Source: Pyxicephalus adspersus (lineage: Eukaryota > Chordata > Amphibia > Anura > Pyxicephalidae). From it: 64,000 bases of DNA. A program made the position numbers and the translations under genes. Positions within the stretch are counted from its first letter, which is position 1; every line of letters starts with the position of its first letter. The stretch is from positions 44,419,237-44,483,236 of the forward strand of contig NC_092869.1 of the NCBI RefSeq assembly GCF_032062135.1, in the 5' to 3' direction. Positions 6,784 to 62,755 of the stretch are shown here, piece by piece. The notes under the pieces were generated by a model. The model searched no databases. It was not told where the DNA came from and worked only from the letters and a program-made list of their open reading frames with translations.

Positions 6784-6814
6784 CTGAAGAAGCACATGTG
6801 TGCGAAACGTGTTA
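6784..6814 (+). ncRNA. Hammerhead-like structured motif, copy 1
   Basis: CTGAAGA is followed by a perfect GCACA/TGTGC stem, then GAAAC GT GTT. The order of elements matches a type I hammerhead core with one additional A after CTGAAGA. Flank (stem I) pairing is weak in this copy. Confidence 0.4.
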
Positions 6815-7119
6815 GGTACAAAATCCTACCCTATATCTTTATACAAATTGGATTCATTGTATGGTTTGGTGAGCTTATATCATGAACATCATGAACCTTA
6901 TGTGATGAATATTTGTTTATTTGTTGAATGATACATCTTTGATGTTATTTATATAACCTGTCTGACCTATACACTGCCCTCGAACCCCTGATACAAATCC
7001 ATGCTTCTATTTGACTAATCACAGCCCATGATCAAATTGCACCATATTGCTGACATTGCAGTGGTGCAATGTATCAATATTTTGATCAATTTAAATCAAT
7101 TGTGATAGACTGCACTTAT

Positions 7120-7445
7120 GTCATGTACCACCCAATTTCCACTTTCCTTTCCCCTCATTCTTCCCTTTTATCTCACTTACTGCCCCCCATTCCCTCCCAT
7201 TCTCTTTGTTTTCTCCATCTCCTTCTTCTCTCTCTCCTCCCCTCAATCTCATTATCTCTGTCCATCTTTTCCTCTTTTTCCTCTCTGCTTTCTGCTCATT
7301 CTCTCCCCTCCTCTCTTCTCTTTATATATTTCTCTGCTTTGTTCTCTCATCACTCTGATCTCTTCCTATCTTTTCCCTTTCTTTATTCCTGCCTCTCGCT
7401 CAATCCTTCCCTTTCTTTCGTTCTCTATCTATCCCTCTCTTGATC
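7120..7445. repeat. Pyrimidine-rich tract (C/T on + strand)
   Basis: About 325 bp are dominated by C and T on the plus strand with almost no G. The two overlapping Ser/Leu/Phe-rich open frames (124 and 120 codons) arise from this composition and are not genes. Confidence 0.85.
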
Positions 7446-8170
7446 TTCTATGTCTAAGCTGTACATTATCTGTGGTTTAGTTCAGACCAATCTGTACGCC
7501 TCCGGCAGAGATAGTTATTGATTATGAAGATTTTCCTCCTCTGACACGCGGTTGGTATCTGGCTGGTCTATGGACAGATAAGACCTTCTCACTTCATTTA
7601 GACTTTTAGATAGTCTGAGTTCTTCTCGGTCAATAGCTTTGTACACTTTAGAGCTGTTAAGATGATTCCCTCCCTACAGGTTATCTGGGAGCCTTTCAGC
7701 AGCTTTAAGCTAATCAAACCCACATAGGCCTCCGGGTCGCATGCGACCACCTCTTGTGAACTCTTCCCCGTCGTCACAAATTGACTTCCAGAGAAGTTGT
7801 TCAAGACGCCGCGGAAAGTTTAGAGGCTGAATAAAAAAGTCTTTTCTGTAGCCGGAGAGAAACAAGATGCTAAAATTGATGTTTTAAAAGCTGCCATGTT
7901 CTTCTTTGAATTTAATTGCTATTTACCAAACCAAATAAACACCGTGGAAAACCTGGGAAATTCAGCTGTTCAAAGGAGCCGTGTTGTTCAAAGAAAGAGA
8001 ATCAGAGATTGGCCAGCTTGTAAATCATCTAAATATTTGCTGGTGGTTCTGTTTGACCTCCACAGTCTGCGGCGATATTTCTAGGGGGATGAAGAAATCT
8101 GACAATTTACCTCATTTGGAAAAGGACTCATTGATCATTGCCAACTAAAAATAAATAAATAATAGGAAAT
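7446..8170. other. Unannotated low-repeat DNA
   Basis: Moderately CpG-bearing unique sequence around 7480-7860, with no coding frame or repeat that I can support. Confidence 0.35.
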
Positions 8171-8171
8171 C

Positions 8172-8257
8172 TATTCCAGGTTTGTTGGATCACCTAGGTT
8201 CTCCCATGACATTCTAACGTGTCCAGTCTTCGAGGGCTTTAGTAAATCAGCCCCAAT
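8172..8257. mobile_element. Foldback MITE, one arm
   Basis: TTCCAGGTTTGTTGGATCAC through TTTAGTAAATCAGCCCC matches the right arm of the palindromic MITE seen complete at 36698-36914. Confidence 0.65.
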
Positions 8258-8261
8258 AAGC

Positions 8262-8470
8262 TAGCGTTTCTCAACCAGGGTTCCTCAAGAGTTTGATAAA
8301 GGTTCCTTGAGTTCCTTGGTGGCTCCAATGATCTTTTTGGCTATCTGTAAGGCTGACATTTTTCCCACTGGTCAGTAATGTAAGAGGAATTCTTCCCACT
8401 GACCATCACACTAATATACTGTGAACTGTGGATATAGTAATTATAGCATGGGTACCCTGATGACCCAAAT
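8262..8470 (+). mobile_element. hAT-like dispersed repeat (family B), 3' truncated
   Basis: Begins GTTTCTCAACCAGGGTTCCT and carries the internal blocks ATCTTTTTGGCTATCTGTAA and CCCACTGACCATCACACTAA shared with copies near 12285, 43805, 44523 and 53915. The right terminus is missing. Confidence 0.7.
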
Positions 8471-8489
8471 GTGGTCATGGGACAGAGAT

Positions 8490-8608
8490 ATAGCAATATA
8501 GAAAACCTGGAATGGATTTCTTCAACTCTATTTGCTATTTGTTCAACACTGGATTTAATCTATTCCTAGCTTGCTAAATCATTGAGGTTCCCCCATGATA
8601 GTATATCC
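8490..8608. mobile_element. Foldback MITE fragment
   Basis: Both arms are partly recognisable, from AACCTGGAATGG through CCCATGATAGTATATCC. It ends where a different element starts at 8609, suggesting nested insertion. Confidence 0.5.
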
Positions 8609-8830
8609 CAGGGGTGTAAAATCTGGCCCAAGAGCCAAATCTGGCCCTCAAGGGCCTTTTTTTTTTTGGCCCCCAAGGAATTCTGAAAATGAACTACATC
8701 TGGCCTGCCCGCGTTTCTTTTTTAATACATTCAGTACATAGACATTATTCCTTTACACCCATCATGTGACACAGCCTAGGCAATGATCACATGGTGCCTG
8801 ACTACCAGGGGCATAGTCTCCAATGGAGAC
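8609..8830 (+). mobile_element. hAT-like element with CAGGGGTGT terminus
   Basis: CAGGGGTGTAAAATCTGGCC and the following GGCCCTCAAGGGCC block are a left end typical of many vertebrate hAT MITEs, where ends of the form CAGNG are usual. I did not find a matching right terminus. Confidence 0.55.
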
Positions 8831-8959
8831 AAAACTTGTGATTTGTGATTAGTGTCAGACAAACTTGTGATTTGAGAGGATGAACAACATACAGCCTGCA
8901 TAGATAGATAGAAATTAGTCTTTTCAACCTTAAAGTGTGTGTAATTTGGTTGTTGATGT

Positions 8960-9009
8960 CAGGCTTATAAATCCTGAAGAAGCAGAATCTGCGAAACGCA
9001 TTGAGCCTG
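8960..9009 (+). ncRNA. Hammerhead-like structured motif, copy 2
   Basis: Core CTGAAGA (8974-8980), stem GCAG/CTGC, then GAAAC GC ATT. The flanks CAGGCT (8960-8965) and AGCCTG (9004-9009) are exactly complementary, forming an outer stem with an 8-nt internal loop (TATAAATC) on the 5' side. That matches type I hammerhead stem I. One extra A follows the first core strand. The AT-rich downstream sequence (TTCAAATACATTATATTTTT) resembles that of copy 11. Confidence 0.5.
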
Positions 9010-9185
9010 GACACGTGCATGTTTGTATAAGATATCTCTTATTTTTAATGTTCAAATACATTATATTTTTATGGACTAAAATGGTTTGTAAATGGTAATC
9101 AATGAAAGGGTACCTTCAAAGTCAGTGTGGGTATTTAGAGATTGAATAGATAGATTCCAAACAAATAGCCTATTTGGCTTCTGTA

Positions 9186-9335
9186 AATTGACCTTAGACT
9201 GTTTAAATGACATATGACTATGGTAGGGACATTAGATTGTGAGCTCCTTTGAGGAACAGATAATGACATGACTATGGGATTTGTACAGCGCTGCGTATTA
9301 TGTCAGCACTATATAAATACTGGATGATAATAAAA
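9186..9335 (+). mobile_element. tRNA-derived SINE, 5' truncated
   Basis: Contains GACCTTAGACTG, TTAGATTGTGAGCTCCTTTG and the tail GTACAGCGCTGCGTATTATG, then ATATAAATAC and an AATAA-rich end. The tRNA-like head is absent. Confidence 0.85.
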
Positions 9336-9479
9336 GAAATTGGATGTGTGTGTTTAACACAATTGTTCCCAAAAGAGAAAATATTGAATATTTCAACACA
9401 CTATTCAAGAAAACCACATCCATTAAAGAAAGAGCAAGAAGGGAATTAGGAAAAGATACCATGATTTACCAATTTTGCT

Positions 9480-10010
9480 TCTTTCCCAGCACACAGTTGC
9501 CCCAAGGACTTTCCTCTTGGGAAGGACTGACAGAGGACCAAGAGCCCACAGATAATGCACCAGGGTTCCAGCAAAGACAAGTCCAGAATACAAAGCCAGA
9601 TGTCGTACACGGGTATTGATCCCACCAGATATTCAAAGGCAAAGACAAGAACAGAGTTGAGGTCACAGGCACAAGGTCAGTCCAGGCAGCAAACAATTAC
9701 AGGGCCAGAAACCAGCAAAATCAGCAACAGTAAATCTAATGAATAACACACCAGCAGCAGGGCAACCCAGCTTAACACTACAACAAGTATTGGGGACTAG
9801 AAACAGAAAGGCTATAATGTCCTAGCAGCCAATGCCGGGGCAGGATGAAGCCAGGGACTAATCTGCCCCTAAAATTCCATTCAGATGTGCACAGCTTCGG
9901 AATTTGTGCTGGGGATGCTGAGAAGATACATCTTGGGCTGCACGGCTAAAGGGAAGCAGGGGATGCTGATTATTCCTTGTTCTCCTTGCTGCTGCAAAGG
10001 ACATCGTTGG
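9480..10010 (-). mobile_element. Possible LTR-retrotransposon remnant
   Basis: The stretch of CAGGGTTCC, GGCAAAGACAAGAACAGAG, AGGTCACAGGCACAAGGTCA and GGCCAGAAACCAGC resembles, in reverse, the leader or LTR region of gypsy-type elements common in frog genomes. No LTR pair, primer-binding site or pol frame is visible here, so this is pattern recognition only. Confidence 0.3.
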
Positions 10011-10555
10011 ACAAAGTAAATTGGGAGTGATATTGCAATGGCGCACAGCACAATTTCACCGGCCTGATAAGCATCTCCTAACAATAAAATAGTCTAAGAT
10101 ACTCAAACTACCAAGATGATCAGAATCCATCCTATTATCACTATCCTAATATTAATATTGACACTCAATGCAGGAAGAGTTTATTATTTTTTTACAGTTA
10201 GAATGGACATGTCAGTAACTTTATTTATTTAGTAAGTACAAGAGGTGGTCACTTGGTAATAGGAAAGGGCAGAAAAAAGCCAGACCTGCAATCTAAAATG
10301 CTAAAATAGTTGGTAACACATAAAGAAAGTCCATCCGAGTCACGCTCATGACATGGACTTCAGCTCTTAATATTGAGTCCATGAGATAATCGTCAATGAA
10401 ATCATCCAAACCATTTGCACCATTACACTATTTGCACAATTAAAACAATCTAATATTTGCTCAAAGGGCTGCTTAGGTGAAATTAGTTTATTAAAAAAAA
10501 TCTGCTCTTGTATTTATTTTTAATTTTGTTATTTTGTTGTGTGTATTTGGGATAG
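10011..10555. other. Unannotated spacer
   Basis: AT-rich DNA with no recognised gene or repeat. Confidence 0.4.
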
Positions 10556-10725
10556 TTTACATTGTTTATTTTAGTTTTCTTTGTATTTTCTTTTGTTTAT
10601 CTTTTCATTACTTATGTACTCTTTAAAACATTTCTTTTTCTTTTTTTTTTTTTGTTTGTAAAAAAAATAAAACATAATACATTGAGCCTTATTGAGAAGG
10701 CGCTGGGGGGGAGGGGGGGGGGTAT
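10556..10725. repeat. T-rich tract followed by A-rich and G-run simple sequence
   Basis: A T-dominated stretch ends in T12, then A8, then G7 and G10 runs near 10704-10721. The 74-codon Phe-rich open frame is compositional. Confidence 0.8.
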
Positions 10726-11702
10726 TATTTTGGCATTAAGCTTCATTGAATTGAAAGGAACTTCTGTACCTCTAGGAGCCAAATAAAGCACATTGTAGCA
10801 TTAAAATCCACCAAAAACCATTTTATTATCACCATTTTTGTTGAAATATCTGGGAGATAAACACTCTTTATTATTATTATAAATAATACTCTTGTAATAA
10901 TAACAATCTGGTATAGCACACAGAAATGTTTTCTCTTTTCAGCACACAGGAGTGTGACCTGGCAGCTTTCATGTAAAGCCGGCAATGACCCAGTTAGTCT
11001 CCTCTTGCAGATCAGGGACATTGATGAGGATAATGAGGATCACAAAGGCTTTGTCAATGTTTATCTATTCATCAATCCACTAAGATCTCAATGATTTAAT
11101 TAAGAGATGTTTACTAGCTGATCTGCACATGGCACTGCCACTTAAAAACATGTTTCCAATTGACATGGCTGCTTCTTTCTTCCCACCCAGCACTTCATGC
11201 ATTGTTCAGAAATCGTAGAGACTCCTGATTTTATAGCTAATAGAACTTTAAATATAATGTAAATTATACAAAATGACCCTACATTGTTTGGTTTTATGCC
11301 ATTGCATCATGAAGTGACAGAACCTATAAGTACCCATAGAAAGACATGACATTTCAGGAAAAGAAATGGTATGTAGATGTTCCGGTGTGTAAAATAAAAG
11401 CTAAAAAAATGCATTTTGGGCACATTAGGACTAAGAAAAAAATGCACCCAACAGTCAAATTCACAAATACAACCTAGCTCGGGATTGTTGTGTTGGTCTG
11501 CTACTATATTAGTGGCTCAGGACAACATTTAAAATAAATTGCCAAGCAACACCACCTGTTTATGACCAACCCGTTATCATTTATTGAAGGAAACGTGCAA
11601 TAAAATGTTTTTTGCAGCATCTGAACACAATGAGAAGATACAAGTGAGCTCTGCATTTTAGGATAATAACTGAAATAAAAGATTCTGACACATGCACACA
11701 TA
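10726..11702. other. Unannotated spacer
   Basis: Mostly AT-rich DNA. I see no coding exon, RNA gene or repeat family that I can support here. Confidence 0.4.
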
Positions 11703-12039
11703 TGGCAACACAGTGGCTTGGAGGTTAGTAATCAGGCTTTTGCAGCCCTAGGTCCTGGGTGTGAATCTCGGCTAGGACACTGTATGTAAGTAATTTAGAT
11801 GTTCTCCCTGTGTTTGTGTGTGTTTCCTCCTATATTCCAAAAACAGTTTAGCAGTTAGGTTAATTGACTTCCCCCAAACTGGCCTTAGACTGTGGTAATG
11901 ACATATATTTATGGGATTGATATTAGATTGTAAGCCCCCTTGAGGGACTGTTAGTGATATGACTACGAACTTTGTACGATGCTGATTAATATGTTTGTGC
12001 TTTATAAATAATGAAGTAATATAATAATAATTCTAATAA
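11703..12039 (+). mobile_element. tRNA-derived SINE, full length but old
   Basis: The order matches the other copies: CAGTGGCTTGGAGGTTAG head, a GGTGTGAATCTC box, CCAAAAACAG..GCAGTTAGGTTAATTG, ATTAGATTGTAAGC, and an AATAATAATTC tail. It is much more diverged than the 61310 copy, so the family was active over a long period. Confidence 0.75.
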
Positions 12040-12282
12040 ACTCAAACTAGTATTTTGAAGGGTCACAATGGAGTCATGCCATTAGATAAGTTGGAGAAGA
12101 CTTCTGTGCTGTCCTAAGTGCCATCACATGTGACCTTATGGGCCAGACAAGACCCTGGGTTGTAGTTTTGTTCTTCATATGGTGGCACCAGGGGTGCCTA
12201 TGGAAGAGTGCTGGGGGATATTGCAGATAACGAGCCCTTGTAATGTTGTGATCCATGACCCAAGGACTCAAAGTCTGAGACC

Positions 12283-12410
12283 AGAGTTTCTCAACCAGGA
12301 TTCCTCCAGAGGTTCCTAGGGGTTCCTTGAGTAATGGGTAATTTGTGTCTCTCAGGTCAGTTACCACTGTTACCAATTACTTTTTGGCTATTTGTAATTT
12401 GCAGCCCTAG
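12283..12410 (+). mobile_element. hAT-like dispersed repeat (family B), truncated
   Basis: GTTTCTCAACCAGGATTCCT followed by the shared block ending TACTTTTTGGCTATTTGTAA. Only the left half is present. Confidence 0.65.
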
Positions 12411-12510
12411 GTTCAGGTTCTGATCCTGACAAGACAACTAGAGAAATCCCCAAAGAGCTGGTAGTAGGTTCCTCACTGTGAGAGAGGCTATGGACTTTGG
12501 GAATGACACT

Positions 12511-12800
12511 TAGCATGATAGGGCACAGTCATGGGGGAACATAAAAGGTTCCTCACCAAACTGTGACCACAAGGCTGGAAGAGCCCAATTATCTATAATG
12601 TCTTTGTATGATGGAGGATTACCAAGGCCATTCACTGGAGACGCCTGATCCACCCAAACAGGAGCTGCACTATGTTTTCCAATGCAGTGTCCAATAAAGC
12701 AAGGCAGTGCACTGTACACTGGAAAGAAAGAGGTGTTTACCAAATTGTGACCGCAAGGCTGGGAGAGCTGAATTGTCTACAATTGTGCACTTGACTAGAG
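12511..12800 (-). pseudogene. Tc1/mariner transposase fragments, partly duplicated
   Basis: On the minus strand 12743-12510 encodes FIGHCIGKHSAAPVWVDQA, then PALWSQFGEEPFMFPHDCAL, the middle of a Tc1-type DDE domain. Immediately upstream on that strand (12800-12730) the same PALxSQFGK segment occurs again, so the same part of the element is present twice in a row. Neither is a full transposase. Confidence 0.8.
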
Positions 12801-13911
12801 ACACGTGGACTCCATCTTTGGAGAGGGGTTCCTATATGTGGGTCAAACACTACATATCTAGGATTGCACTCACCCAGATTTCCAACCTATATCACACCTC
12901 TAGCACAGCCGGTCCCTCTCTTATCATTTCCTTTTATTTTCCCACTTGCGGAGATTCTTTGCTGTAATTTATCACAAATACATTAATTCTCAGCGGTAAT
13001 TTTAGACAAATGGATCTGTATTCTTAGAGTATGAATATACCTTTTACTTTTCAGGCTGGAAATTATTCTCTGAATAGAGGTATTTATGTTGAAAAATTTT
13101 TTTGCAGAACTGAATAACACTCAATAACGTATACTTGCGTGGGCAAAAAAAAGATAATGGATATTATCTGAGACAGGAAATTTGGTAGGAGCAAAGTCTG
13201 AAGCATTGCCCGTACACATTCATTAGAAGGAGACGTTGGCAGCTCATGTCTTTTCAGCACTGAATGTTCTACTTTTCTGTGCGGCTGCTGTTCAGGTGTC
13301 TTTCCCAAAACCTCTCTCCTGTTCTTATTTTATTCATATTTATGGAATCTGATTGGATTTTTAGATGGAAACGAGCAAGATGTCCATGAGCAGAAAGAAC
13401 TAAAGCTGATCTGAAACATTAACCCCCTCCGACTTCCCCACTAATTAATAAAAAATACTAAATTCTATTTTTACTTACAGATGTGACTCTCCAGTCCTGG
13501 GTCTGCCTCCTACTCTGGGGGCTATCCAATGGTGGGGTCCTCTTGGATCCAGAAGAAGATGCAACTCGTGAATACAAAGAGGGCACATTGGCCGAGTCTG
13601 CCAGGAGCATCTTGTTCAAAGACTGTCAATATAGCTGATTGCCCCAAATTGATTCAGCTTCCAGGAAACATCTGAAAGATCACAACTGTTACATGGAATG
13701 GTTCTGTTTCATTTCACAAAAATGACTTTTTAATGTCAAAAAAATTTGGCTTATGGTCTCCCTGTTTGTGATGTCTTTGCAGAATTGTAGCAAAGTATGC
13801 AGGTAATAATGCAAATGGTGCCACAACGTTTGGAAGATAACACATATGAAATATTCTACTCATGTTCACCATCCTATAAAAGGATATCTATACTTATACT
13901 CCTAGAAGTAC
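12801..13911. other. Unannotated spacer
   Basis: No gene or repeat recognised. The frames at 12707-12967 and 13084-13308 are short and without domains. Confidence 0.35.
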
Positions 13912-14183
13912 AATTATTATTATTATTACACAGAATTTATATAGCGCTGACATATTGCGCAGTGCTGTACAAAGTCCATAGTCATGTCACTAGCTGTCCC
14001 TCAAAGGAGCTCACAATCTAATGTCCCTACCATAGTCTTTAATACAGACTAAGGTCAATTTTAAGGGGAAGCCAATTATTCTAACTGCATGTTTTTGGAT
14101 TGTGGGAGGAAACCCACACAAACATGGCGGGAGCCTGCAAACTTGGAACCTAGCACTAACCACTGAGCCACCGTGCTCCCTTT
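13912..14183 (-). mobile_element. tRNA-derived SINE with internal deletion
   Basis: Tail, body and the extreme head (GCACGGTGGCTCAGTGGTTA on the minus strand) are present, but the part containing the B box is missing between the CCTGCAAACT block and the head. Confidence 0.8.
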
Positions 14184-14217
14184 GGGCACACAATATAAGT
14201 GGTTGGAAGATCCAAAT

Positions 14218-14264
14218 TTTTCCTATATCCTCTGAAGAAGCTATTTGTGAAACGCGCTGGAAAA
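14218..14264 (+). ncRNA. Hammerhead-like structured motif, copy 3
   Basis: Core CTGAAGA (14232-14238), a weak central stem, then GAAAC GC GCT. The flanks TTTTCC (14218-14223) and GGAAAA (14259-14264) are complementary. The 5' internal loop TATATCCT has the same length and a similar start (TATA) as in copy 2. The base before the expected cleavage site differs from consensus. Confidence 0.4.
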
Positions 14265-14302
14265 CAAGGAATTTCTGAAGAATTCCAACCACGTTGCCAC
14301 AG

Positions 14303-15103: not shown

Positions 15104-15303
15104 TTAACCTCCTGAGCGTTACACTGAGGTCTAGATTTCTGTACCAAAAGTGATCCACTGTTTTTCATGAAATTTTTTTTTAAATTGTAGACCTGTAACT
15201 TACAGAAATATGTCCGAACAGGATGTACAAAATCTCGGGCTTAACCATCCTTGCAGTTTTTTTTTGCCCGAGCGAAGGTCGGGCTTAACTGCAAGGTGGT
15301 TAA
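15104..15303. mobile_element. piggyBac-like MITE
   Basis: A 200-bp element bounded by TTAA at both ends: TTAACCTCCTGAGCGTTA on the left and GCAAGGTGGTTAA on the right, giving imperfect inverted ends TTAACCNCCT. TTAA duplication is the hallmark of piggyBac insertion. No transposase is present. Confidence 0.7.

Positions 15304-15816: not shown

Positions 15817-15818
<2 letters not shown>
15304..15818. other. Unannotated AT-rich spacer
   Basis: Contains poly-T runs, but I see no gene or named repeat. Confidence 0.35.
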
Positions 15819-17939: not shown

Positions 17940-18435
17940 ATTCTTCATGGCAAAGATCCAACAAAGTGCTGAAATCATTCCTCAGGGGTTTATCGCCATA
18001 TTGATATGATAGCATCCCACAGTAGCTGCATATTTGTCACCTGCACATCCATGAAGGGAATCTCTCATCCATCACATCCCAAAGGTCTTTTGGAAGGAGA
18101 TCCGGTGACTGTGTAGGCCTTTTGGTTCTGGTGACCCAATTGTCATGTACAAGAAATCAGTCTGAGATGATTTGAGCTTTGTGACATGGGGTATTATCCT
18201 GCAGGAAGTAGCCATCAGAAGATGGGACATTGCGGCCATAAAGGGATGGACGTGACCAGCAACAGTACTAAGGTAGGCTGGGGTATTTAAACCATGCTCA
18301 GTTGGTACTAAGAGGCCCAAAGTGTGCCAAGAAAAACCTCCTACACCATTATACTACCACCAGCCTTAACATGTGATGCAAGGCAGGATGGATCCATGCT
18401 TTCATGTTGTTGGCTCCAAATTTCAACCCCATAAC
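17940..18435 (-). mobile_element. Decayed dispersed repeat
   Basis: On the minus strand the stretch has broken frames containing NNMKAWIHPALH-like and MTIGSPEPKGLHSHRISFQ segments. I recognise this as a widely dispersed vertebrate repeat often seen in fish and frog sequences, but I cannot place its class with certainty. Confidence 0.45.
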
Positions 18436-19560: not shown

Positions 19561-19682
19561 GTGGTAGGTCAACTGATTTTAATAAACTTTTAATAACAAA
19601 TTTTCTACGAGTACATGTTTGAAGAATAACCTCTTATATAAACAAACAAAATGATAGTAACATCTGTTGAAGACCAATATGG

Positions 19683-19724
19683 TGATGACGCGTTTCGCAG
19701 AACAAGGTCTGCTTCATCAGATCA
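19683..19724 (-). ncRNA. Hammerhead-like structured motif, copy 5
   Basis: On the minus strand: TGAT, CTGATGA, A, stem GCAGA/TCTGC with a 6-nt loop, GAAAC GC GTC, then ATCA. The flanks TGAT and ATCA pair, the core strand is the canonical CTGATGA, and the expected cleavage triplet GTC is present. Stem III would be only two base pairs. The single departure from a canonical type I hammerhead core is the extra A before stem II. Confidence 0.5.
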
Positions 19725-19740
19725 AACAGATGGTAGAACA

Positions 19741-28236: not shown

Positions 28237-28295
28237 ACTTCTCAATGCGTTTCGTGGAAAAAATCCGCTTATTCAGGAGGAAGGAGCGGAGAAGT
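28237..28295 (-). ncRNA. Hammerhead-like structured motif, copy 6
   Basis: On the minus strand: ACTTCTC, a 12-nt internal loop, CTGAATA, a GCGGA/TCCAC stem with one mismatch, then GAAAC GC ATT GAGAAGT. The outer 7-bp stem ACTTCTC/GAGAAGT is perfect. The first core strand has a G-to-T change (CTGAATA), which should be inactivating for a hammerhead. Confidence 0.4.
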
Positions 28296-30084: not shown

Positions 30085-30770
30085 CAAAGTTACAATTATT
30101 ATTTTTAGGATTATAATATTAAACGGTATTTATAAAGCACTAACATATGTGCTGTGACTAAATAGGGGTTGCAAATGATAGACAGATACAGACAGTGACA
30201 CAGGAGGAGAGGACCCTGCCCCAAAGAGCTTACAATCTAGGAGGTGGGGGAAGTATCACACAATAGGAGGGGAATATGGAATGGTGGGTAAGTAGTGAGG
30301 ATTAGGAGACAGAAGAAGACGGGTAGGTGAGGGTGAAGCGTTGGGTTTTGAGGGCTCTTTTAAAGGAACAGAAAGTAGGAGCAAGCTGAATAGGAGGAGG
30401 AAGACCATTCCAGAGAGTCGGGGCAGCTCTAGAAAAGTCTTGGAGCCGTGCGTGTGAGGAGGTTATAAGTGAGGAAGTCATTAGTAGGTTGTTGGAGGAG
30501 TGAAGAGAGCGGCTAGGGGAGTATTTTTCTACCAGGTCAGAAAGGTAAGTGGGACAAGAACTGTGGAGGGATTTGTGTATCAGGTAGGTAGGTGGGGGAC
30601 GAGCTGTGGAGGGATTTGAAAGCAAAGCACAGGAGATGAATTTGATCCTCAGGTGAAATGGAAGCCAATGAAGAGAACTACAAAAAGAGGCAGCAGAAGA
30701 AGAGTGGTGGGAAGGATGGATAGGTCTGGCTGCAGCAATGTTGTAGTATGAACGATGAGGAAAAAGAGAC
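30085..30770 (-). pseudogene. L2/CR1-type LINE 3' portion with reverse-transcriptase C-terminus
   Basis: The 107-codon minus-strand frame (30625-30302) contains PTYLSDLVEKYSPSRSLHSS and AAPTLWNGLPPPIQLAPTFC followed by SFKRALKTQRFTL. The LWNxLPxxxRxAPxxxSFKxxLKTxLF pattern marks the C-terminal end of L2/CR1-clade ORF2 proteins. The catalytic region is missing. The 3' part (30240-30085) carries CATTTGCAACCCC and a degraded ATAAATACCG tail. A short direct duplication (CTGTGGAGGGATTTG at 30561 and 30606) interrupts the upstream part. Confidence 0.75.
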
Positions 30771-31180
30771 TGAGGTCATGTTTCCTCCTGCCTACAGCAG
30801 ACCAATGACATCATTTCAGACTAGGCGGAGTCACTTACTGAAGCTCAAGGTCATATAGAACATATGAATAGAACAACCTAGAACAATCATAAGAAAACTG
30901 CAGATAATCTTTAGTTTCCTTGCAGTGAATAAGACAAACAAATCAGGAGCCAGCTTCAATGCCTGATTGCTTTAATACTTCTATTTTAATTTTGAACGAG
31001 TTGGAAATTTTTTTTGGATTAACAATGCTTTTATTCCCCCATAATATGTCAACATCCTTAGAGACAGATCTATTGTATAGTCAAACTCTAGCTTTGCACA
31101 TCAACTTCCCACCCAGCCCTCGCTCTAAATCTTCCCCACCTTTCTTTCTAAGAAGTCTCTGTATGCCTGCCCTAAATCTG
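30771..31180. other. Unnamed repeat fragment and spacer
   Basis: 30780-30850 matches part of 5500-5560 (CCTACAGCAGACCAATGACA). The rest is unannotated. Confidence 0.35.
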
Positions 31181-35084: not shown

Positions 35085-35395
35085 TGGAAGTGAGGGCTGG
35101 AGGGCAGATTTAATGAAGGGAAGGCTAAAGGACAAATTTAATGAAGGGGAGGCTGAAGGGCAGATTTGATGTAAGGGAGGCTGGAGGGCAGATTTAGTGA
35201 AGGGGAGGCTGAAGGGCAGATTTAACGAACGGGAGGCTGCGGGGTAGATCTAATGAGACTGGAGGGCAGATTTGATGTAATTGAGGTTGGAAGGCAGGCT
35301 GGAGGGCAGATTTGATAAAAGGGAGGCTGGAGGGCAGATTTATTAAAGGGGAGGCTGGAGGGGGGATTTATTAAAGGGGAAACTGGAGGGTAGAG
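35085..35395. repeat. 28-bp minisatellite, copy 1
   Basis: About eleven units of GAGGCTGGAGGGCAGATTTA with an AATGAAGGG linker. The same unit forms the array at 55355-55640. Upstream flanks (GACTTGCTGCAGCTTCTAAT here, GACTTGTTGCAGCTTTTAAT there) also match, so the array belongs to a larger dispersed element. Confidence 0.9.
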
Positions 35396-48649: not shown

Positions 48650-50625
48650 TTTTTTAACTTTTCTGATTACACCCAGCATTAAGGTATCGCACCATACAAC
48701 ATGGTCCTCCAACAGGTGGAAAATACTCCACGCCTGACCTTCTCTACACCTTTCTGATGACATTACTATGGGGATATCACACCTGCAACATGGTCCTCCA
48801 ACAGGTAGAAAATTTCCCGTTCTTGACCTAGTCTCTAGCTTTCCTATGACATTATCACCAGGATATCGCACCATGCAACATGGTCCTCCAACAGGTAGTA
48901 AATTCTCCACTCCTGACCTTCTCTCTACCTTTCTGATAACATTACTATCAGGATATTGCACCATGGAACATAAACCTACAACGGGTGGAAAATATTCCGT
49001 TTCTGACCTTGTCTCTAGCTTTCTTATGACATCATCACCAGGATATCGCACCATGAAACATGGTCCTCCAACAGGTGGAAAATACTTTGTTCCTACTCTC
49101 TACCTTTTTGATCCTACCCACCACTGGGATATCACATCACCAACATGAAAATCAATAAAGTAGAACATGTCTCTGCTCCTGACCCTCTCCCCACCTTCTA
49201 GATTAATCAACATGACCCTGGGTACAAAATACTTTCCTCTTTGTACGATTCTGATTGCATTACTACCATGATATCATACCATGCAACAATGTCCTCGATC
49301 AGTTGGAAAATACTCTGCTTCTGACCTTCTCTCTGCCTTTCTGATGACATTGCGGCCACGATATCACACCATTCAACATGTTCCTCCAACAAGTAAAAAA
49401 TAATGCACTCCTGACCTTCTCTACACCTTTCTGATGACATTACTACCAGGATATCACACCTGCAACATGGTCCTCCAACAGGTGGAAAATTTTCTGTTCC
49501 TGACCTAGTCTCTAGCTTTCTTATGACATTATTACCAGGATATCGCAACATGGTCCTCCAAACAGGTGGTAAATTCTCCACTCCTGACCTTCTCTCTACC
49601 TTTCTGATAACATTATTACCGGGATATTGCACCATGGAACATAAACCTCCAACGGGTAGAAAATATTCCATTTCTGACCTTGTCTCTAGCTTTCTTATGA
49701 CATTATCACCAGGATATCGCACAATGCAACATGGTCCTCCAACAGGTGGAAAATACTTTGTTCCTATTTACCACTGGGATATCACATCACCAACATGAAA
49801 AATCAATAGGGTAGAACATTTTTCTGCTCCTGACCATCTCTCTACCTTTTGGAACAATCAACATTACCCTGGGTACAAAATACTCTCCTCCTTCTACGAT
49901 TCTGATTGCATTACTATCATGATATCCCACCATGCAACATGGTCCTCCATCAGTTGGAAAATACTCTGCTTCTGACCTTCTCTCTACCTTTCTGATGACA
50001 TTGCGACCAGGATATCACACCATTCAAAATGTTCCTCCAACAAGTAAAAAACAATGCATTCCTGAGCTTCTCTTTAGTTCTTCACGACATTACCACCAGG
50101 ATATCGCACCCTGCAACATGTTCCTCCAACAGGTAGGAAATACTTTGCTCCCAACCTTCTCGATAACTTTCTGACCATACCCACCACTGCGATATTACAT
50201 CACCAACATGGCAATCAATAAGGTAGAAAATACTCACCTATATCACACTTTCCAATATCACATTCAAAAGGTAGACTACTCTGATTTATACCTTTCCTAT
50301 TAACCTATCACTTTTGGATTACCCAACATGACTCCTTGAAAATTCTCTTTTTTTGACCTTCTCTCTTTCTGATCTTTTGGACCACCGTGTCATTACACCT
50401 CTAGTATAGCCTTAAGGTAGGTGCTCCTTTAGTTAGCAAATACTCTTTGCTTGACCTCTCTAAGGTTCTGAATATTTCCACCACCAGGTTGTCACACTTC
50501 CAGCCCTCCATCAGTTATAAATATATATTATATAGGTAAATATAGTCTCCATCAGGTACTCACCCCTTGACTTTCTCTCTAACATTCTGATTGTATCTAC
50601 CACCAGGATATCCCTTCCTTCAACA
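48650..50625. repeat. ~90-bp minisatellite array with higher-order repeats
   Basis: About 20 units share CAACATGGTCCTCCAACAGG, TCTCTACCTTTCTGATGACA and ACCAGGATATCGCACC. Blocks of several units are repeated: the marker ATCAATARRGTAGAACAT occurs at 49151 and 49802 (651 bp apart) and again near 50214. Because the unit is 30 codons, long frames open on both strands (135 and 171 codons minus, 126 plus); the minus frame repeats YPGDNVIRKLETRSETE-like segments. Units right of about 50240 are strongly decayed. I consider it non-coding. Confidence 0.85.
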
Positions 50626-54169: not shown

Positions 54170-54177
54170 GTCTAAAA

Positions 54178-55040: not shown

Positions 55041-55650
55041 TAATGAGGGGTTTAAAGAGGACCTGTCAGTCATTTTACGTATTTGCATTTGACTACATTA
55101 CATCACAGCTCAATCATTATCCAGAAATCTGGCACTTTATTCACCTTCCTCTGGATCACTTGTTAAGAAATGGCTAATTAGTTGAAGACATTTGTAAACT
55201 ACACCGGCACTGGACAGTTGGCATCTCAGTTCAGGCTGTAACTGACTTGTTGCAGCTTTTAATGCACAGTGTGAGAAGGCTACAGTGTGCATTGAATATA
55301 GAGTTAGCATTTTCAGTCCAGAAGAGAAGCCTGTATAACTGAGCAAGACTGGGGCAGATGAATTAAAGGGGGGCTGGAGGGCAGATTTAATGAAGGGGAG
55401 GCTGGGGGGCAGATTTAATGAAGGAGAGGCTGGAGGGCAGGTTTAATGAAGGGGAGGCTGCAGGGCAGATTTAACAAAGGGGAGGCTGGAGGGCAGATTT
55501 AATAAAGGGGAGGCTGGAGGGCAGATTTAATGGAGGGGAGGCTGGAGGGCAGATTTATTAAAGAGGAGGCTGGAGGGCAGATTTATTAAAGGAAGGCTGG
55601 GTCAGATTTAATAAAGAGGAGGCTGGAGGGCTGATTTGAGGTTATTATAG
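55041..55650. repeat. Dispersed element with 28-bp minisatellite, copy 2
   Basis: The flank (AGGACCTGTCAGTC, then TTGCAGCTTTTAATGCACAG) precedes about ten units of GGGGAGGCTGGAGGGCAGAT plus TTAATGAA between 55355 and 55640. Same unit and same upstream flank as the array at 35085-35395. Confidence 0.85.
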
Positions 55651-56310: not shown

Positions 56311-56317
56311 AATACGC

Positions 56318-56447
56318 TGCATCGTCAGTGATGTCACTGGTCTCAAGGGATTGGATAGCCTACATTCTCAGTGATGTCACTGGTCTCTAGCGAATAGATA
56401 GGTTGCATTCTCAGTGATGTCACCGGTCTCTAGTGATTGGATAGGCT
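56318..56447. repeat. 43-bp minisatellite running into gap 2
   Basis: TCAGTGATGTCACTGGTCTC recurs at 56325, 56368 and 56411 (43-bp spacing), each followed by a GATTGGATAGGCT-like segment. The third unit is cut by the gap. Confidence 0.9.
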
Positions 56448-57166
56448 NNNNNNNNNNNNNNNNNNNNNNNNNNNNNNNNNNNNNNNNNNNNNNNNNNNNN
56501 NNNNNNNNNNNNNNNNNNNNNNNNNNNNNNNNNNNNNNNNNNNNNNNNNNNNNNNNNNNNNNNNNNNNNNNNNNNNNNNNNNNNNNNNNNNNNNNNNNNN
56601 NNNNNNNNNNNNNNNNNNNNNNNNNNNNNNNNNNNNNNNNNNNNNNNNNNNNNNNNNNNNNNNNNNNNNNNNNNNNNNNNNNNNNNNNNNNNNNNNNNNN
56701 NNNNNNNNNNNNNNNNNNNNNNNNNNNNNNNNNNNNNNNNNNNNNNNNNNNNNNNNNNNNNNNNNNNNNNNNNNNNNNNNNNNNNNNNNNNNNNNNNNNN
56801 NNNNNNNNNNNNNNNNNNNNNNNNNNNNNNNNNNNNNNNNNNNNNNNNNNNNNNNNNNNNNNNNNNNNNNNNNNNNNNNNNNNNNNNNNNNNNNNNNNNN
56901 NNNNNNNNNNNNNNNNNNNNNNNNNNNNNNNNNNNNNNNNNNNNNNNNNNNNNNNNNNNNNNNNNNNNNNNNNNNNNNNNNNNNNNNNNNNNNNNNNNNN
57001 NNNNNNNNNNNNNNNNNNNNNNNNNNNNNNNNNNNNNNNNNNNNNNNNNNNNNNNNNNNNNNNNNNNNNNNNNNNNNNNNNNNNNNNNNNNNNNNNNNNN
57101 NNNNNNNNNNNNNNNNNNNNNNNNNNNNNNNNNNNNNNNNNNNNNNNNNNNNNNNNNNNNNNNNNN
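56448..57166. other. Assembly gap (719 N)
   Basis: Unknown bases, probably continuing the 43-bp array on the left. Frames across it are artefacts. Confidence 1.
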
Positions 57167-57628
57167 TGTTTTGTTAAATGTGCATTCTTCCAATGAAAGA
57201 ATAAAAAATTGTAAATAAAATACAATGGGGAGGGGGTGGGGGTGTTAGCAGCAATCCTTACCTTATTCCTTGATCCTCCAAAACTTGATGCATTTTGTTC
57301 ATTATATGGACAAGCCGTGACATTTTCACATACAATGCAGAAGGGCTTCCCACCTGCTTGAATTAATTGTATGCAATTAATTATATGGCACTACTGTCAC
57401 TCATGCTTGGGGTGGGCATGTGACATGATGTAAATGAGTTTGAGGGGTCAAAGTATTGATTTATACCTACTCTTGCCACCCTTACCTTGCTGGCATCCAT
57501 TTTGCATTTCCTTTGTGGGTTTGGGTTAGTTGGATATTTTTCTGACTTGTAATTAACAAAGAAGAAGAATGGAGCTCCACATTGTATGTTGATTGAACAG
57601 AGCATTTATTTGCACATATTAATAAAGC

Positions 57629-57666
57629 CAACACGTTACGGAGGCCTTCTAATATACCTCCTTCAT
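57629..57666 (-). ncRNA. Hammerhead-like motif, diverged copy 7
   Basis: On the minus strand: ATGAAGGAGG, a loop, CCTCCGTAACGTGTTGG. The central stem GGAGG/CCTCC is perfect although its bases differ completely from other copies. Two core positions are changed (GTAAC for GAAAC, ATG for CTG). An AATAAA-containing AT-rich stretch follows on the minus strand, as in other copies. Confidence 0.3.
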
Positions 57667-57949
57667 AAATGCCCAAATAATAGATAGAGAAAACAAGAAG
57701 CACTTAATGACTCCCTGTCATTTAAAAAACATTGGAAACAATGTTTAATAGATTTAATAGATTGTGATGTCATGTTTCTGTAGTTTGTATGGCTCTGTGT
57801 TCCAGTTATCAAGAAGTCCTTCTACGCCCATTTATTTTTCATCAACTAAAGCCTAATGAAAAGGACATTTGAAGATTCATAAAAAATGATTTGGCTTTGT
57901 TTGTGTGAATATATTCCGTTATAGTGCTCCAGACTTGATATAAGAACTC

Positions 57950-58365
57950 CGTGTTTCTGCAATGTTGGGCATCGGTGTTGGGCCTGTATGTTCCTCTGTG
58001 TCCTGCACTAATAGAGACTGAGCCTTGCTTGGGCTCATTGGTCCTGATTATCCAAGGACATCTGCATTACATCAACACATGCCTATAAAATACTTTCTGG
58101 TTTGCAATGGGAATATTCCGTATCTTTCACTGGCTCCCTGACCCGGGGGTTTCTGTATCCAATATGTTTAATATCTGAATTGTTCCTGACTCTGAATCCT
58201 TTTCATCCTTGGTTCCTTTCTAATCCTGTGTTCTTGATTTTCTGAATGATGACTGTCCTTGCCTTCTGTCCCTTAGTTTCTCTGAGAAGGACTTCTGGCT
58301 TCTAATCTCTATCCTGGCCATTACTTTATTATTTTTAGTAAAGGAGTGAAGGTCCCTTGCTGAAC
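57950..58365 (+). mobile_element. Possible LTR fragment
   Basis: A TATAAAATA box at 58084-58092 is followed by a long C/T-rich stretch (CCTGACTCTGAATCC, GGTTCCTTTCTAATCC) that resembles gypsy-type LTRs of frogs. No second LTR or internal region is found, so this would be a solo LTR at best. Confidence 0.3.
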
Positions 58366-58507
58366 TAAGCCTCAAATTTTTGAATGGATAGAGTAGGTCA
58401 TGATTTGGAATTACTATGAAAATTTAGATAAATAGAAGGCACTTCATAGGATAGATGGTTTATTTTGTTGCTTATTATGTGTTTTCAGTTCTTTATTTAA
58501 TTCCCAG

Positions 58508-58540
58508 AGAAGTGGATTAGGAGCTTGCAAAACGTGTCAA
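58508..58540 (+). ncRNA. Hammerhead-like motif, degenerate copy 8
   Basis: GAGAAGTGG, loop, GCAAAACGTGTC keeps the outline of the motif, but the stem and first core strand are poor. Probably decayed. Confidence 0.2.
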
Positions 58541-59073
58541 ATTGTATTATTTTGAGATTGATTATGAATGTTAAACCTTCATTCAATTGATTTTAGTTGT
58601 GTGTATTTAAGGAAAATATTAAATTAATTTTGCTGGCATAAAATAAATTATTACAATTTTAGCTGAAATATATTGTTGAGCAATTTGATGCCTAAAAAGT
58701 CCCATTTTTATGTATTTTTATTGGTTCTATATTTCATCTTTGGTGTGGGAGCCCTGGGTGATAGCGTCAGAAAGCGGGGACCCAAAAAGTGGGTGGGTGT
58801 GGGTGATTGGATGCTAGAGTTGATATTCATTCCCAAATCAGTAAATAGCAGCTGATAGCAGAAGGATCATAGGGATGGCAAGCCCTTTAGGTGGTAACGT
58901 TTGTTGGGTTTTTGGCCTTCAAGGACTTGCAACCTGAGTATGTGATTTTATGTGTTACTGTTATATTTATCTTTGGTTATATAAGTTAGTTTTGTTGGGT
59001 AATAAAAGTGTGTCCTGAAATAAATGGCTGCAAAGCAATTTGATCCAAAATATGGAGTGTTGTTTTTGTATAA

Positions 59074-59103
59074 GGGGGGGGGGGGGGGGGGGGGGGGGGG
59101 GGG
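59074..59103 (+). repeat. G30 homopolymer
   Basis: Thirty consecutive G. The proline-run frames on the minus strand (58948-59215) come from it. Exact length is likely unreliable in the assembly. Confidence 0.95.
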
Positions 59104-59387
59104 CTTGTGCAGCAAGATAAGAGGAAGGGTGAGCCTTTGGGCTACATAAGTCAAAATGTATGACCTCTGCGGAGGAGAGACGCTGAAAGCAGCTGTTAGC
59201 CCTGTGGACATACAAGGGGATCTTTCATTGAGTAAGCAATGGAAGTTATTAAGCGAATGGATATATAAGTCTCATCTCCCATACATTGAGATCTCCGGTC
59301 ACTGGACTTATCCCTACATTAAAGAATTGTGTTGCTGGTCAGGGTATTTAAACCTAGGGAGCCATTAAAAAAGATAAGATGCTGTTC

Positions 59388-59431
59388 TGTTCCTGATGAA
59401 GTGGACTTAGATCCTAGAAACGTGTCGAACG
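59388..59431 (+). ncRNA. Hammerhead-like structured motif, copy 9
   Basis: Reads GTTC (59389-59392), CTGATGA, A, a short GGA/TCC stem, GAAAC GT GTC, then GAAC (59427-59430). The flanks GTTC/GAAC are perfectly complementary and extend by a T-G wobble, and canonical core CTGATGA, GAAA and cleavage triplet GTC are present in order. Stem III would be two base pairs. Departures: the extra A and two non-pairing positions at the base of stem II. Confidence 0.45.
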
Positions 59432-60179
59432 TACCAAACCTACATACACTAAATAGACCAGAATACAAATCTAATGAATAACCTGATAGTTTTTTATGTA
59501 TTTTTTAATGATTTTAGAAAAATTGGGGTTTTTTAATACTATGAAATATTTTGAGTTTGCCTCAAAAGTCCCAAGAATACTTTCCTGCTTCCATATTCTT
59601 GGTATTCTAAGTCAAGAGGTGTCTAGGCTAAGCTATGCTAGTTGGATGCATACTATCTAACTTTGTTGGAGAGACCTTATACAGAAATGATCTTTTCCTT
59701 TCCCTATAACAAGTGGTGTGGGTTTTATCCTTAGGGCATTGGGGATCTCTTGGGGCCCTTTGGCTAAAATCCCAGCAGTTAAGATATTCATCAACTTTGG
59801 GATGTCATAAAAAACAACAATTTTATTCAGCAGATTCTGTTCTTTGTAATGTGGGATTCAATATCTTTCGTGAGTTATATTTTGTAATTGAAACTAACAA
59901 AAACAAATTCTAATAATGCATCTGAAATCCATCAATGCAACAAACACCGACCCATCAGTTTTGGTGTTCACGGGAACATCGCCTGGTGCATCTCACACCA
60001 GCATAGAATCACATCTGAACTTTTTATGCATTGTGAAAATTCTGTTTGATTTATTCATTTTTAGGCCATGGCAAGATGGAGAAAGTCTTGCATGCAATGA
60101 GAACGTGGTAATCACTATACTTAGTAATCACAATAAATTGAGTGGTGTATAAAAAGGCCAATTAATCATTTGCTTGTAA

Positions 60180-60680
60180 TTAACTAAATCTTCAATGCAT
60201 TCAGCCTGCTTAGATTCAATTTCAGAAAGCGTTTGTTGGTCAATTCATCACGCGTTGTTTGTGTCACTGGAATATGAAGAAAATGGCTTTTCATTAAGCT
60301 GTCTTCATAACTCACAATAGCCCAGAAAATAAGGACATTATTACTATGATTTTAATGTAAAATTAACTGCGCCTTTCTTTTGAATTATCACGGAGGAGGA
60401 ACCATAATCCAATATTAGATTTTCGTGTCGAAGTCTCTTGGGTTTTAATTGCATCTTAATTTCCTTCCACTGCAAATTAAAAGATGAAATTGAATATGCA
60501 GAGCGTGCACAGCCGGCAGTCGGAAAAAAAGTTTTTCAAATATTTTGAGACATCTGTTAGTAAGAGTCCCGTCCGCTGGTGTGACGGACAATTATCTAAT
60601 GCGCTTACTCTTTCAGTAAAATGAAGGCAGCTGAAGGTTCCTCCATGTGTACCGAATAGGGTCATATGGAATTTGTTGGG
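60180..60680. promoter_or_regulatory. Low-repeat block, candidate conserved non-coding element
   Basis: About 500 bp of unique-looking sequence with TAAT/ATTA-rich and CpG-bearing motifs (CATCACGCGTTG, GGGTTTTAATTGC, CTTAATTTCC) and no coding frame. Confidence 0.3.
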
Positions 60681-61309
60681 AGTGCGAAAGCAGATATAGA
60701 ATTAATTGGTGTCATAGCACTCTGATAAATTGTTCTATAACTTAATGCAATTTAATTCCGGGATTATAAGAAGCTGTTTACCTACATGCAAGGTAAGGAA
60801 CTTTATTACTAATTAAAAGCAAGCAAACTTTTAAAAGTCATTTTAGTGGATGATTCGGAAGTTATAAATAAAAATCTTTGAATTTGCTCAGAATATTAAA
60901 TCCCAATTAAACTCTCACACCTCTTATATCTCCATATAGTCCAGTATGCATTTATTTAGATATGTCTTAATACAGAAGGAAACCCCACGATACTCACCTT
61001 TTCCCATTCTACAGTAGGATGCCGCCATCTTCTTTCCTTGAAATAATCTTCCCATGATTTGTTTCTTAAACTTAATTAGATCTTCTTTTCTTGAAATAAT
61101 ATTAATCAAATAATCTTGATTTGTCAAGCTGGGATGATGTGAATGTCCCTTTCTGCAATAATGCCATGCCTGATCAATTTTTAGTTCTGCTTTGAAATAC
61201 CTTTTTCTCTTTGTGTAAAGGAGATTTGTTAGGGTATGTGTACACAAATAAAGGGGCATATATCCCAAAATTCCTTGAAATCTGTAATAATTCTATTTGT
61301 TGGGTTAGC
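60681..61309. other. Unannotated AT-rich DNA
   Basis: A 114-codon minus frame at 60924-61268 includes KRYFKAELKIDQAWHY and IKFKKQIMGRLFQGKKM, but I recognise no family. No repeat assigned. Confidence 0.3.
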
Positions 61310-61646
61310 ATTATTATTACACAGTATTTATATAGCACCGACTTATTACGCAGCGTTGTACAAAGTCCATAGTCATGTCACTAGCTGTCCCTCAAAGGAG
61401 CTCACAATCTAATGTTAGACCATAGTCATATTTCTTTAATACCGTCTAAGGTCAGTTTTGGGGGGAAGCCAATTAACCTAACTGCATGTTTTTGGAATGT
61501 GGGAGGAAACCAGAGTACCCAGAGGAAACCCACACCAACACGGGGAGAACCTGCAAACTCCATGCAGATAGTGTCCTGGCTGAGATTCGAACCTGGGACC
61601 CAGTACTGCAAAGAGTGCTAACCACTGAGCCACCACGTCACCCACG
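61310..61646 (-). mobile_element. tRNA-derived SINE, best-preserved full-length copy
   Basis: Minus-strand order: head with A box GGTGGCTCAGTGGTTAGCAC (reverse at 61614-61633), B box GGTTCGAATCTC (reverse at 61582-61593), body with CATGCAGTTAGGTTAATTGG and GATTGTGAGCTCCTTTGAGG, then LINE-like tail GTACAACGCTGCGTAATAAG, CTATATAAATAC and TAATAATAA. The A and B boxes form an internal RNA polymerase III promoter. About 337 bp. Confidence 0.9.
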
Positions 61647-61989
61647 GTATTAGGAAATAGGGATATTAGGAAAAAACATTGGCTCATACAGCTTAAATGA
61701 AAACTGATGTACAGCATTAAAATGGTTGCAGAAATCACATGTAGGTTTTTTAGATGTGGTTAGAATCCAAGAACATCGTTGTAGCTAGAAATTACCTACT
61801 GTAAATCTTACCCAACCCTTACAAATTCAAATTTTACTTGACAGCTCAGTACCTTTCATGTCAACATTTCAGAAACAAGGTTCAGTCAATATAACAACAG
61901 CCAGAATGTAGAAGTATTGTTTGCGCACAATATAACAAATGATACCACCTTGATTGCAATTGCAATAATTACTCTGTTGCTGGACTTTA

Positions 61990-62260
61990 CGGGCCCAGCT
62001 GTACAGCCAAGGGGCCGGGATTGTAATGAGCAGGTAATGATTAAGACATCACTGTGACCTCTTTAGTTAAAATGCAAAGTGGTTTGTCAATAGGAATGAG
62101 TCCAGCTTTGTGCCTGCTGCTTGTGTTGTGGGTGTAATCTATTTAATGACAACAGACGTTGATTGAGCTCTATTATAACTCAGAAGAACAAATGGAAAAT
62201 GAGTATAATTAAACGACGGCTATTTGTTCATATTGTTTTCTTTCACAAATGCAAAGCAGG
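61990..62260. promoter_or_regulatory. Short low-repeat block
   Basis: Unique-looking sequence with homeodomain-type cores (GGTAATGATTAAG, TATAATTAAACG). No frame. Weak candidate for a conserved non-coding element. Confidence 0.2.
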
Positions 62261-62507
62261 TTTATGACCTTGATGCAAAGATCAAGCAGGTATCACTCTA
62301 TGAAACATTACAGTATGTTTATTCCATGCAGAAAAAAGCAGAAACTTTTGTCTGGAAACCCCTTTTTTGTGATTTTAATATCTACATTTTTTTTACAACT
62401 TCTAATCAATTTTTGTGTTCTGGATTCAATGTAATAATAAATTAGATCGTCAGGATGCAAACGTTTTGCAAGTCAGAATGCAGTAAAACAAATGGAAGTA
62501 AAACAAA

Positions 62508-62548
62508 CCAATGCATTTCGGGGTCTTAACAGCCCCCTTCTTCAGGGG
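62508..62548 (-). ncRNA. Hammerhead-like structured motif, copy 10
   Basis: On the minus strand: CTGAAGA, AGGGG..CCCC stem, GAAAT GC ATT GG. The stem has entirely different bases from copies 2 and 5 yet pairs. Outer pairing AACC/GGTT is possible with a small internal loop. Confidence 0.4.
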
Positions 62549-62702
62549 GTTAAAAATATATGTGACAAGTTGAGTTATTGTAGATGGTAAAGACTTACAA
62601 TAAGTCATGAAAGTCGGCATGACTGTGATGCAGCTCTGAATAGCAGACCAGCATTTGTCGTTTGATTGTTTTTAATGGGAAAGATTTACCATTTCAACTT
62701 CA

Positions 62703-62755
62703 GTTTCCCAATTCCTGAAGAAGCAGATTCTGCAAAACGCGTTGAAATTGAGACA
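62703..62755 (+). ncRNA. Hammerhead-like structured motif, copy 11
   Basis: Core CTGAAGA (62715-62721), stem GCAG/CTGC, then AAAAC GC GTT. The outer stem uses CAATTC (62709-62714) with GAAATTG (62744-62750), one bulged A, and extends with mismatches to about twelve pairs. G-to-A at the first G of GAAA should impair a hammerhead. Downstream is TTTGAATAAATTATATTTTT, similar to copy 2. Confidence 0.45.

Follow-up and report, generated by a model that had tools for sequence, protein, structure and literature searches.

What is the short motif that recurs along a 64-kb stretch of contig C12 in the 1.44-Gb genome of Pyxicephalus adspersus, and what does the additional A in its core mean? A preliminary description of this stretch (called the window below, at its full length) had listed nine sites with the order of a hammerhead ribozyme, namely CTGANGA, an extra A, a stem-loop, GAAAC, a two-base spacer and a GTC-like triplet. 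It had assigned them to a retroelement such as a Penelope-like element (PLE), and had considered the extra A to mark either a variant class or a loss of activity. We conclude that the motif is very probably a type I hammerhead with an extra A between A9 and stem II, that it resides in the region 3' of the endonuclease gene, the pseudo-long terminal repeat (pLTR), of several diverged PLE lineages, that it would probably cleave as a dimer, and that the copies in the window are decaying. This reading is carried by the order of the motif, the covariation of its stems, the fixed extra A and the sense-strand linkage to a PLE-type endonuclease. Position names such as 15.1, 16.1 and H17 follow the hammerhead numbering.

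The motif forms a large family in this genome. The pattern CTGANGAN11GAAAC has 3829 genome matches, compared with 1058 for the reversed pattern, and from these we took 80 stretches on contig C1, mostly ones with A at the eighth place. The 83 exact instances with enough flank share the layout (A/T)CCC-CTGARGA-A-GCC-N4-GGY-GAAA-CGCG-TC-GGG, and conservation drops beyond GTCTC...GAGAC in the 71 rows whose eighth place is A and in which stem II has two pairs. U16.1 is found in 75 of the 83 and a base other than G at H17 in 81, in a set that was itself chosen by GAAAC. Genome-wide, 5164 exact cores have the extra A (2621 + 2543) and 5 lack it (4 + 1); the reversed controls gave 0 + 0 in both cases. 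These counts exclude decay as the origin of the extra A, which is a fixed mark of the family. The proposal of a variant class is thus backed, and a loss of activity is not implied. The type I rule that no nucleotide lies between A9 and pair 10.1/11.1 does not hold here, owing to the extra A.

The core is also retained when copies are selected by their other end. The 15-base 3' half GCGAAACGCGTCGGG has 588 + 621 genome matches (reversed control, 0 + 0), and 41 of these, in 40 loci, were fetched, which leaves the 5' half free of ascertainment. Exact CTGANGAAG lies upstream of 26 of the 41, and at least six of its eight fixed letters lie upstream of 39, compared with 8 of 123 controls placed 150-350 nt upstream. 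Among these 39 copies, the sole free core place is N7 (G in 20, A in 14, T in 5), the other places are kept in 35-38, and the extra A is retained in 38.

Stems I and II covary, and the hammerhead-like architecture with compensated stems that had been described in the window is borne out. In an alignment of 76 copies from contig C1 (A1; four chance-looking loci and second copies per locus left out), hammerhead pairing accounts for 78.6% of cells compared with 74.5 after shuffling (0/500), and 39 cells are double-changed compared with 16.7 (0/500). When the structure is slid along the alignment, the paired fraction is 19-44% instead of 78.6%. For stem II, 97 distinct copies were taken from the 100 rows listed of the extra-A core. 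The third pair is Watson-Crick in 78 of the 97 (shuffled mean, 42.5; maximum, 56) and the fourth in 44 (mean, 25.3; maximum, 43); the fifth (29 of 57; mean, 22.6; maximum, 33) and the sixth lie inside the shuffle range. The loops of stem II vary while its stems covary. The four proximal pairs of stem I are only 66.4% paired. For distal stem I, duplexes with the own partner are more stable than those with swapped partners in three sets: PLE-linked copies, with close relatives among them (n = 11, p 0.0006); the 3'-half matches, 35 of the 41, six being without an anchor (p 0.0008); and 79 of the 83 exact instances, with the four chance-looking loci dropped (p 0.0016). Pairing of the outer flanks had been proposed from the window copies, where the same comparison gives p 0.43 (n = 8); pairing is thus better than with swapped partners in the genome sets and no better in the window copies taken alone. 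Stem III consists of one A-U pair (69 of 76 copies) and a palindromic CGCG loop, and it provides no covariation to assess. The ACGCGU of this stem and its loop is self-complementary.

Three loci point to the host element. L172 is a 2.0-kb copy with a 15-bp target duplication at 131-145 and 2172-2186, found in this one copy; its open frame ends in a conserved stretch, and the motif lies 1.2 kb after the stop. L169 contains a reverse transcriptase (RT) piece with YIDD, which resembles three database proteins at 52-54% over 59-66% of its length. L055 belongs to another stem I subfamily (GTCTTT or GTCCTT with AAGGAC) and carries the L172-type endonuclease (EN) end in each inverted arm (47%, E 1.6e-22; 42%, E 1.1e-10); this protein end is preceded by a GIY-YIG-like stretch, VYLL..GHFYVGNTKR (VYLLTSKCGHFYVGNTKR). 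We take the RT and EN pieces to be PLE-derived, partly on their motifs, and the features of the three loci, none with a curated model above cut-off, as hallmarks of PLEs. An early idea that the motif was the R region of a solo LTR, with TATA- and AATAAA-like flanks, was dropped once PLE coding sequence appeared. The 3' domain of a long interspersed nuclear element (LINE) next to L050 was rejected: it recurred in only two other loci of the set compared (L052 and L075), at unrelated places.

The linkage to this coding sequence was examined in loci chosen by protein alone, from 150 scored EN matches among 2958 candidates. Ten loci were taken with 61-79% identity to the query; they lie on various contigs, most have longer open frames, and 2.2 kb downstream of each were read; for eight nearer relatives (L174-L181), 1.5 kb were read on each side. 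A covariance model of the motif (R1, from 76 copies on contig C1) matched at E<1e-4 in 7 of the 10 loci (1-2.1 kb downstream) and in 4 of the 8 relatives, and all 11 matches (11 of 18 loci) are in the sense orientation to the endonuclease. Among these loci, L184 and L186 make up a single head-to-head pair; L174 and L178 correspond to the copies treated above as L172 and L169. Since the window contains about one motif copy per 8 kb, some linkage is expected by density alone, and the strand bias (11/11) therefore serves as the control. GAAAC is retained in 7 of the 9 PLE-linked copies printed. The guess of a Penelope-like host, made from the window, is supported by this sense-strand linkage.

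Several results weigh against this reading. An Rfam scan of the window, as the preliminary description had proposed, returned no hammerhead, either at gathering scores or at E<=10. Rfam Hammerhead_1 touched 2 of 20 loci, on the motif, at 22.2 and 18 bits under a cut-off of 34, and 0 of nine PLE loci; the gathering score was reached nowhere examined, and L135 searched alone gave E 0.0027. On the protein side, RVT_1 matched the L169 RT piece at E 5.8e-4 and 20.1 bits, below the Pfam cut-off of 29.6, and the EN pieces have no Pfam match (L172, L055) and no NCBIfam match (L172). The stretches read contain no motif in 3 of the 10 PLE loci and 4 of the 8 relatives (7/18), and a tblastn search of the window for PLE RT and EN near the motif copies gave nothing below E 0.16. 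Two of five whole-structure measures in A1 (double-changed pairs and pair types) are no higher than in shuffles, exact helices of at least 5 in distal stem I showed no excess at first look (n = 80), and folds of single copies are mixed, with other structures often preferred. A further such result, on the 5' ends of genomic copies, is given below.

We infer from the sequence how such a motif could act. In the RNA of the element, stem I, the CUGANGA-A core, stem II and GAAA would make up the hammerhead, and, as stem III is reduced to a single A-U pair with a palindromic CGCG loop, two copies would join via a 6-bp ACGCGU stem III. Neighbouring ribozymes in a tandem or multimeric RNA would then cut each other after UH. 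Cleavage is thus predicted to proceed probably as a dimer, with a putative role in the processing of multimeric RNA. Genomic 5' ends were compared with the predicted cleavage site in one subfamily, in which a 601-base piece of L137 has 46 genome pieces (40 of 256 candidates scored), 87-97% identical besides the query itself. Of these, 24 begin at query positions 104-111, 17 of them exactly at 105, and 0 of 46 begin near the predicted cleavage site (query ~163; C3 at 133), so that no sign is seen of cleaved RNA having served as a template. This agrees with the PLE of Anolis, in which the hammerhead cleaves only with PLE protein added, uncleaved RNA is the dominant insertion substrate, and the ribozyme is dispensable for insertion in vitro (PMC11167929). 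Position 105 of the L137 query (locus position 554) directly follows TATTCCTTCTGTGTACACAG, and many starts come right after a stretch of TTCTGTGTACACAG. This position is a possible splice acceptor; the starts look as they would if the template RNA had lost an intron by splicing.

The absence of 5' ends at the cleavage site, the dispensable and protein-dependent ribozyme of Anolis (PMC11167929) and the fixation of the extra A would also fit another explanation, that the hammerhead fold is kept while the ribozyme is lost, the junction in the PLE RNA serving as a structural signal for RT binding or for the start of reverse transcription. We regard this as unlikely, yet as the strongest of the rival explanations. 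N7 drifts whereas the catalytic letters are retained, a pattern more in keeping with catalysis than with a generic junction, and a hammerhead with an extra A at this place does cleave: in the plus-strand hammerhead of chrysanthemum chlorotic mottle viroid (CChMVd), the extra A causes a moderate drop in the trans-cleaving rate (PMC3705267).

It is rather improbable that the copies are retrozymes, i.e., small nonautonomous repeats of 170-400 bp that spread via circular RNA. Short single units, a few tandem copies (L119, 99 nt; L053, 200 nt) and a weak stem III as in the salamander retrozymes (PMC7229834) are what this would predict. Against it, tandem copies of the motif were seen in only 3 loci (L119, L053 and L050; periods 99, 200 and 1218) among L048-L127, which are mostly ~1 kb each, and the arrangement in tandem units of 170-400 bp by which retrozymes are recognized is not the one found. 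Of the 18 loci selected through PLE protein, moreover, 11 contain the motif, in every case on the coding strand. The tandem duplication in L119 occupies 501-698.

Still less probable is a nonautonomous DNA element with long inverted repeats, in which the motif would be a transposase site acting at the DNA level. What suggests it is an inverted copy of nearby sequence upstream of the motif in ~20 of 83 copies (score >=36) and in 16 of the 41 3'-half matches (15 of 40 loci; score >=33), the latter count being made without shuffles and including one pair that ends at a run of N. For the former count, the ten highest of 40 shuffled controls comprise nine at <=28 and a tenth that is an artefact of a run of N, as is the top row (L049) of the list itself. 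In L128, about 1026-2069, a near-palindromic 1-kb stretch carries one motif per arm beside exon-like sequence, the ends and the exon being judged by eye. Where the arms include the motif, its 5' ends face each other. No common termini were seen among the inverted pairs listed, L172 has its 15-bp target duplication, the motif is sense-linked to the PLE endonuclease, PLE coding sequence lies inside the arms of L055, and loops vary while stems covary. An element with long terminal inverted repeats was rejected on the absence of common ends, the target duplication and the PLE protein. The Penelope elements of rotifers show head-to-head inverted pLTRs, palindromes, 8-10 bp duplications and solo pLTRs, and their inverted arrangement has been ascribed to self-priming (PMC3846280); given these described patterns, the inverted pairs here need no new mechanism.

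Chance has a negligible probability: the core has few letters and 39 viral contig stretches fit a loose pattern, but 0 of 40 viral matches have at least 3 stem II pairs counted from the closing pair (the IMG/VR matches, being without stem II, were rejected as family members), the reversed genome controls are zero for both the 3' half and the extra-A core, and the strict motif pattern has 1 match in the window compared with 0 in 100 shuffles.

Within the window, the sites are the following, with scores from R1, whose E-values the tool itself labels as rough.

6778..6819 (+): copy with complete core and extra A, stem II GCACA/TGTGC (41.6 bits, E 3.8e-11; also from the sequence)
8968..9008 (+): copy with complete core, stem II GCAGA/TCTGC (31.9 bits, E 5.6e-8)
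14226..14264 (+): copy with U16.1 changed to C (CGCGCT) (35.7 bits, E 3.2e-9)
19681..19726 (-): copy with complete core, GTC site, stem I TGAT/ATCA (23.1 bits, E 3.7e-5)
28238..28282 (-): copy with G8 changed to T (CTGAATA) (19.1 bits, E 7.2e-4)
57630..57666 (-): claimed copy, unsupported, without C3 and GAAA (no R1 match at E<=10)
59387..59432 (+): copy with complete core, GTC site, stem I GTTC/GAAC (17.5 bits, E 0.0024)
62511..62551 (-): copy with complete core, GAAAT, stem II GGGG/CCCC, loop III TGCA (16.2 bits, E 0.0064; also from the sequence)
62709..62749 (+): copy with G12 changed to A (CAAAAC), head-to-head with the 62545(-) copy (26.1 bits, E 3.9e-6)

All nine sites of the preliminary description were read back at their coordinates, and the order that it gave is present in eight of them, the exception being 57666(-). 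These eight are also the top eight R1 matches in the window (E 3.8e-11 to 6.4e-3). Complete cores remain at five sites (6784, 8974, 19720(-), 59393 and 62545(-)), and one core base is altered at three (14232, 28276(-) and 62715). The details needed small corrections, for G8 at 28276(-), G12 at 62715, GAAAT and TGCA at 62545(-), and U16.1 at 14232. Two additional decayed copies had been mentioned without coordinates, and none was identified. A ninth R1 match, 17954-17991(-) at E 0.034, does not by eye resemble a family member. The match at 62545(-) is drawn only as 62531-62551; loop III of this copy, TGCA, differs from CGCG at both end bases and retains the palindrome. The copies at 8974 and 62715 share -5..+110 at 71% (blastn pair). 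Those at 62545(-) and 62715(+) are oriented head-to-head with no similarity between arms, and a single inverted duplication was rejected for them (arm score 17.6 compared with a shuffled mean of 20.4). A likeness of 15104-15303 to L177 and L179 was set aside as an unrelated repeat because of the opposite orientations relative to EN.

The 19720(-) copy with its flanks (221 bases) has 39 further places in the genome among 40 scored of 84 candidates. Of these matches, 22 lie wholly inside query 55-105 at 90-98% identity, a segment that comprises stem I TGAT...ATCA and all between; 14 others lie within query 30-145, and 3 are longer, two of them being arranged head-to-head on C4. Within insertions that can otherwise hardly be aligned, the ribozyme is thus the best-conserved part. 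The window copies are decaying: they are solo insertions, truncated at the 5' end or fragmentary in other ways, and their coding part is gone.

Minimal type I hammerheads of PLEs were reportedly described by Cervera and de la Pena in 2014 and by Lunse in 2017. PLE hammerheads, dispersed minimal type I hammerheads and amphibian hammerheads acting as dimers are all already known. The known PLE hammerheads resemble the family described here in being PLE-borne, in their minimal stem III, in their stated action as dimers and in their dispersal in noncoding DNA (PMC7761336, PMC6466107, PMC11167929), and differ from it in that here one A is fixed between A9 and stem II. In the Anolis element PAc, the open reading frame begins inside the ribozyme (PMC11167929), whereas here, in the copies examined, the motif lies ~0.6-2.2 kb downstream of the EN end. 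The axolotl and newt HHR_Amex1 is likewise a type I hammerhead whose stem III is a single pair under a palindromic tetraloop, and it works poorly as a monomer and better as a dimer; unlike the present copies, those of the axolotl lie in 330-bp tandem retrozymes, and the section on them makes no mention of an extra A (PMC7229834). The CChMVd plus-strand hammerhead shares the extra A between A9 and G10.1 (PMC3705267) and differs in host and flanks, being a single viroid as opposed to thousands of genomic copies. Compared by description and not by sequence, the repeat-associated hammerheads of Xenopus tropicalis and the RECK and C10 intronic hammerheads also place hammerheads in amphibian interspersed repeats (PMC3088659). 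No title or abstract beginning in our search, which left the key 2014 and 2017 PLE papers and their supplements outside, reported an extra A in a PLE or amphibian family.

This raises the tentative possibility, which we would not yet favor, that hammerheads with the extra A form a large, long-lived class of their own, common to many PLE lineages in this animal and its kin, the insertion being fixed by selection for slowing or gating the cleavage of monomers until a dimer or the PLE protein is available, and the class being missed because standard models reject it. If cleavage were shown, the A10 insertion that appears as an oddity in a viroid would be the rule in a large animal retroelement family, and thousands of natural variants would be available for probing how the core tolerates an insertion. 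Curated hammerhead models can overlook a family whose exact cores number more than 5000 in a single genome, and the motif can serve to recognize old PLE fragments that have no coding part.

Other repeats occupy parts of the window. Positions 48685-50161 hold an array with a unit of ~90 bp, several copies per block and a 180-bp higher order, and two separate arrays with a similar 28-bp unit lie 20 kb apart (35095-35394 and 55352-55637). Broken frames at 2866-3464 (DLNPTEHLWDELE) resemble a Tc1/mariner-type transposase, and an open frame at 30302-30775 (-), LHWLPF...APTLWNGLPP, is similar to the C-terminal end of a LINE reverse transcriptase.

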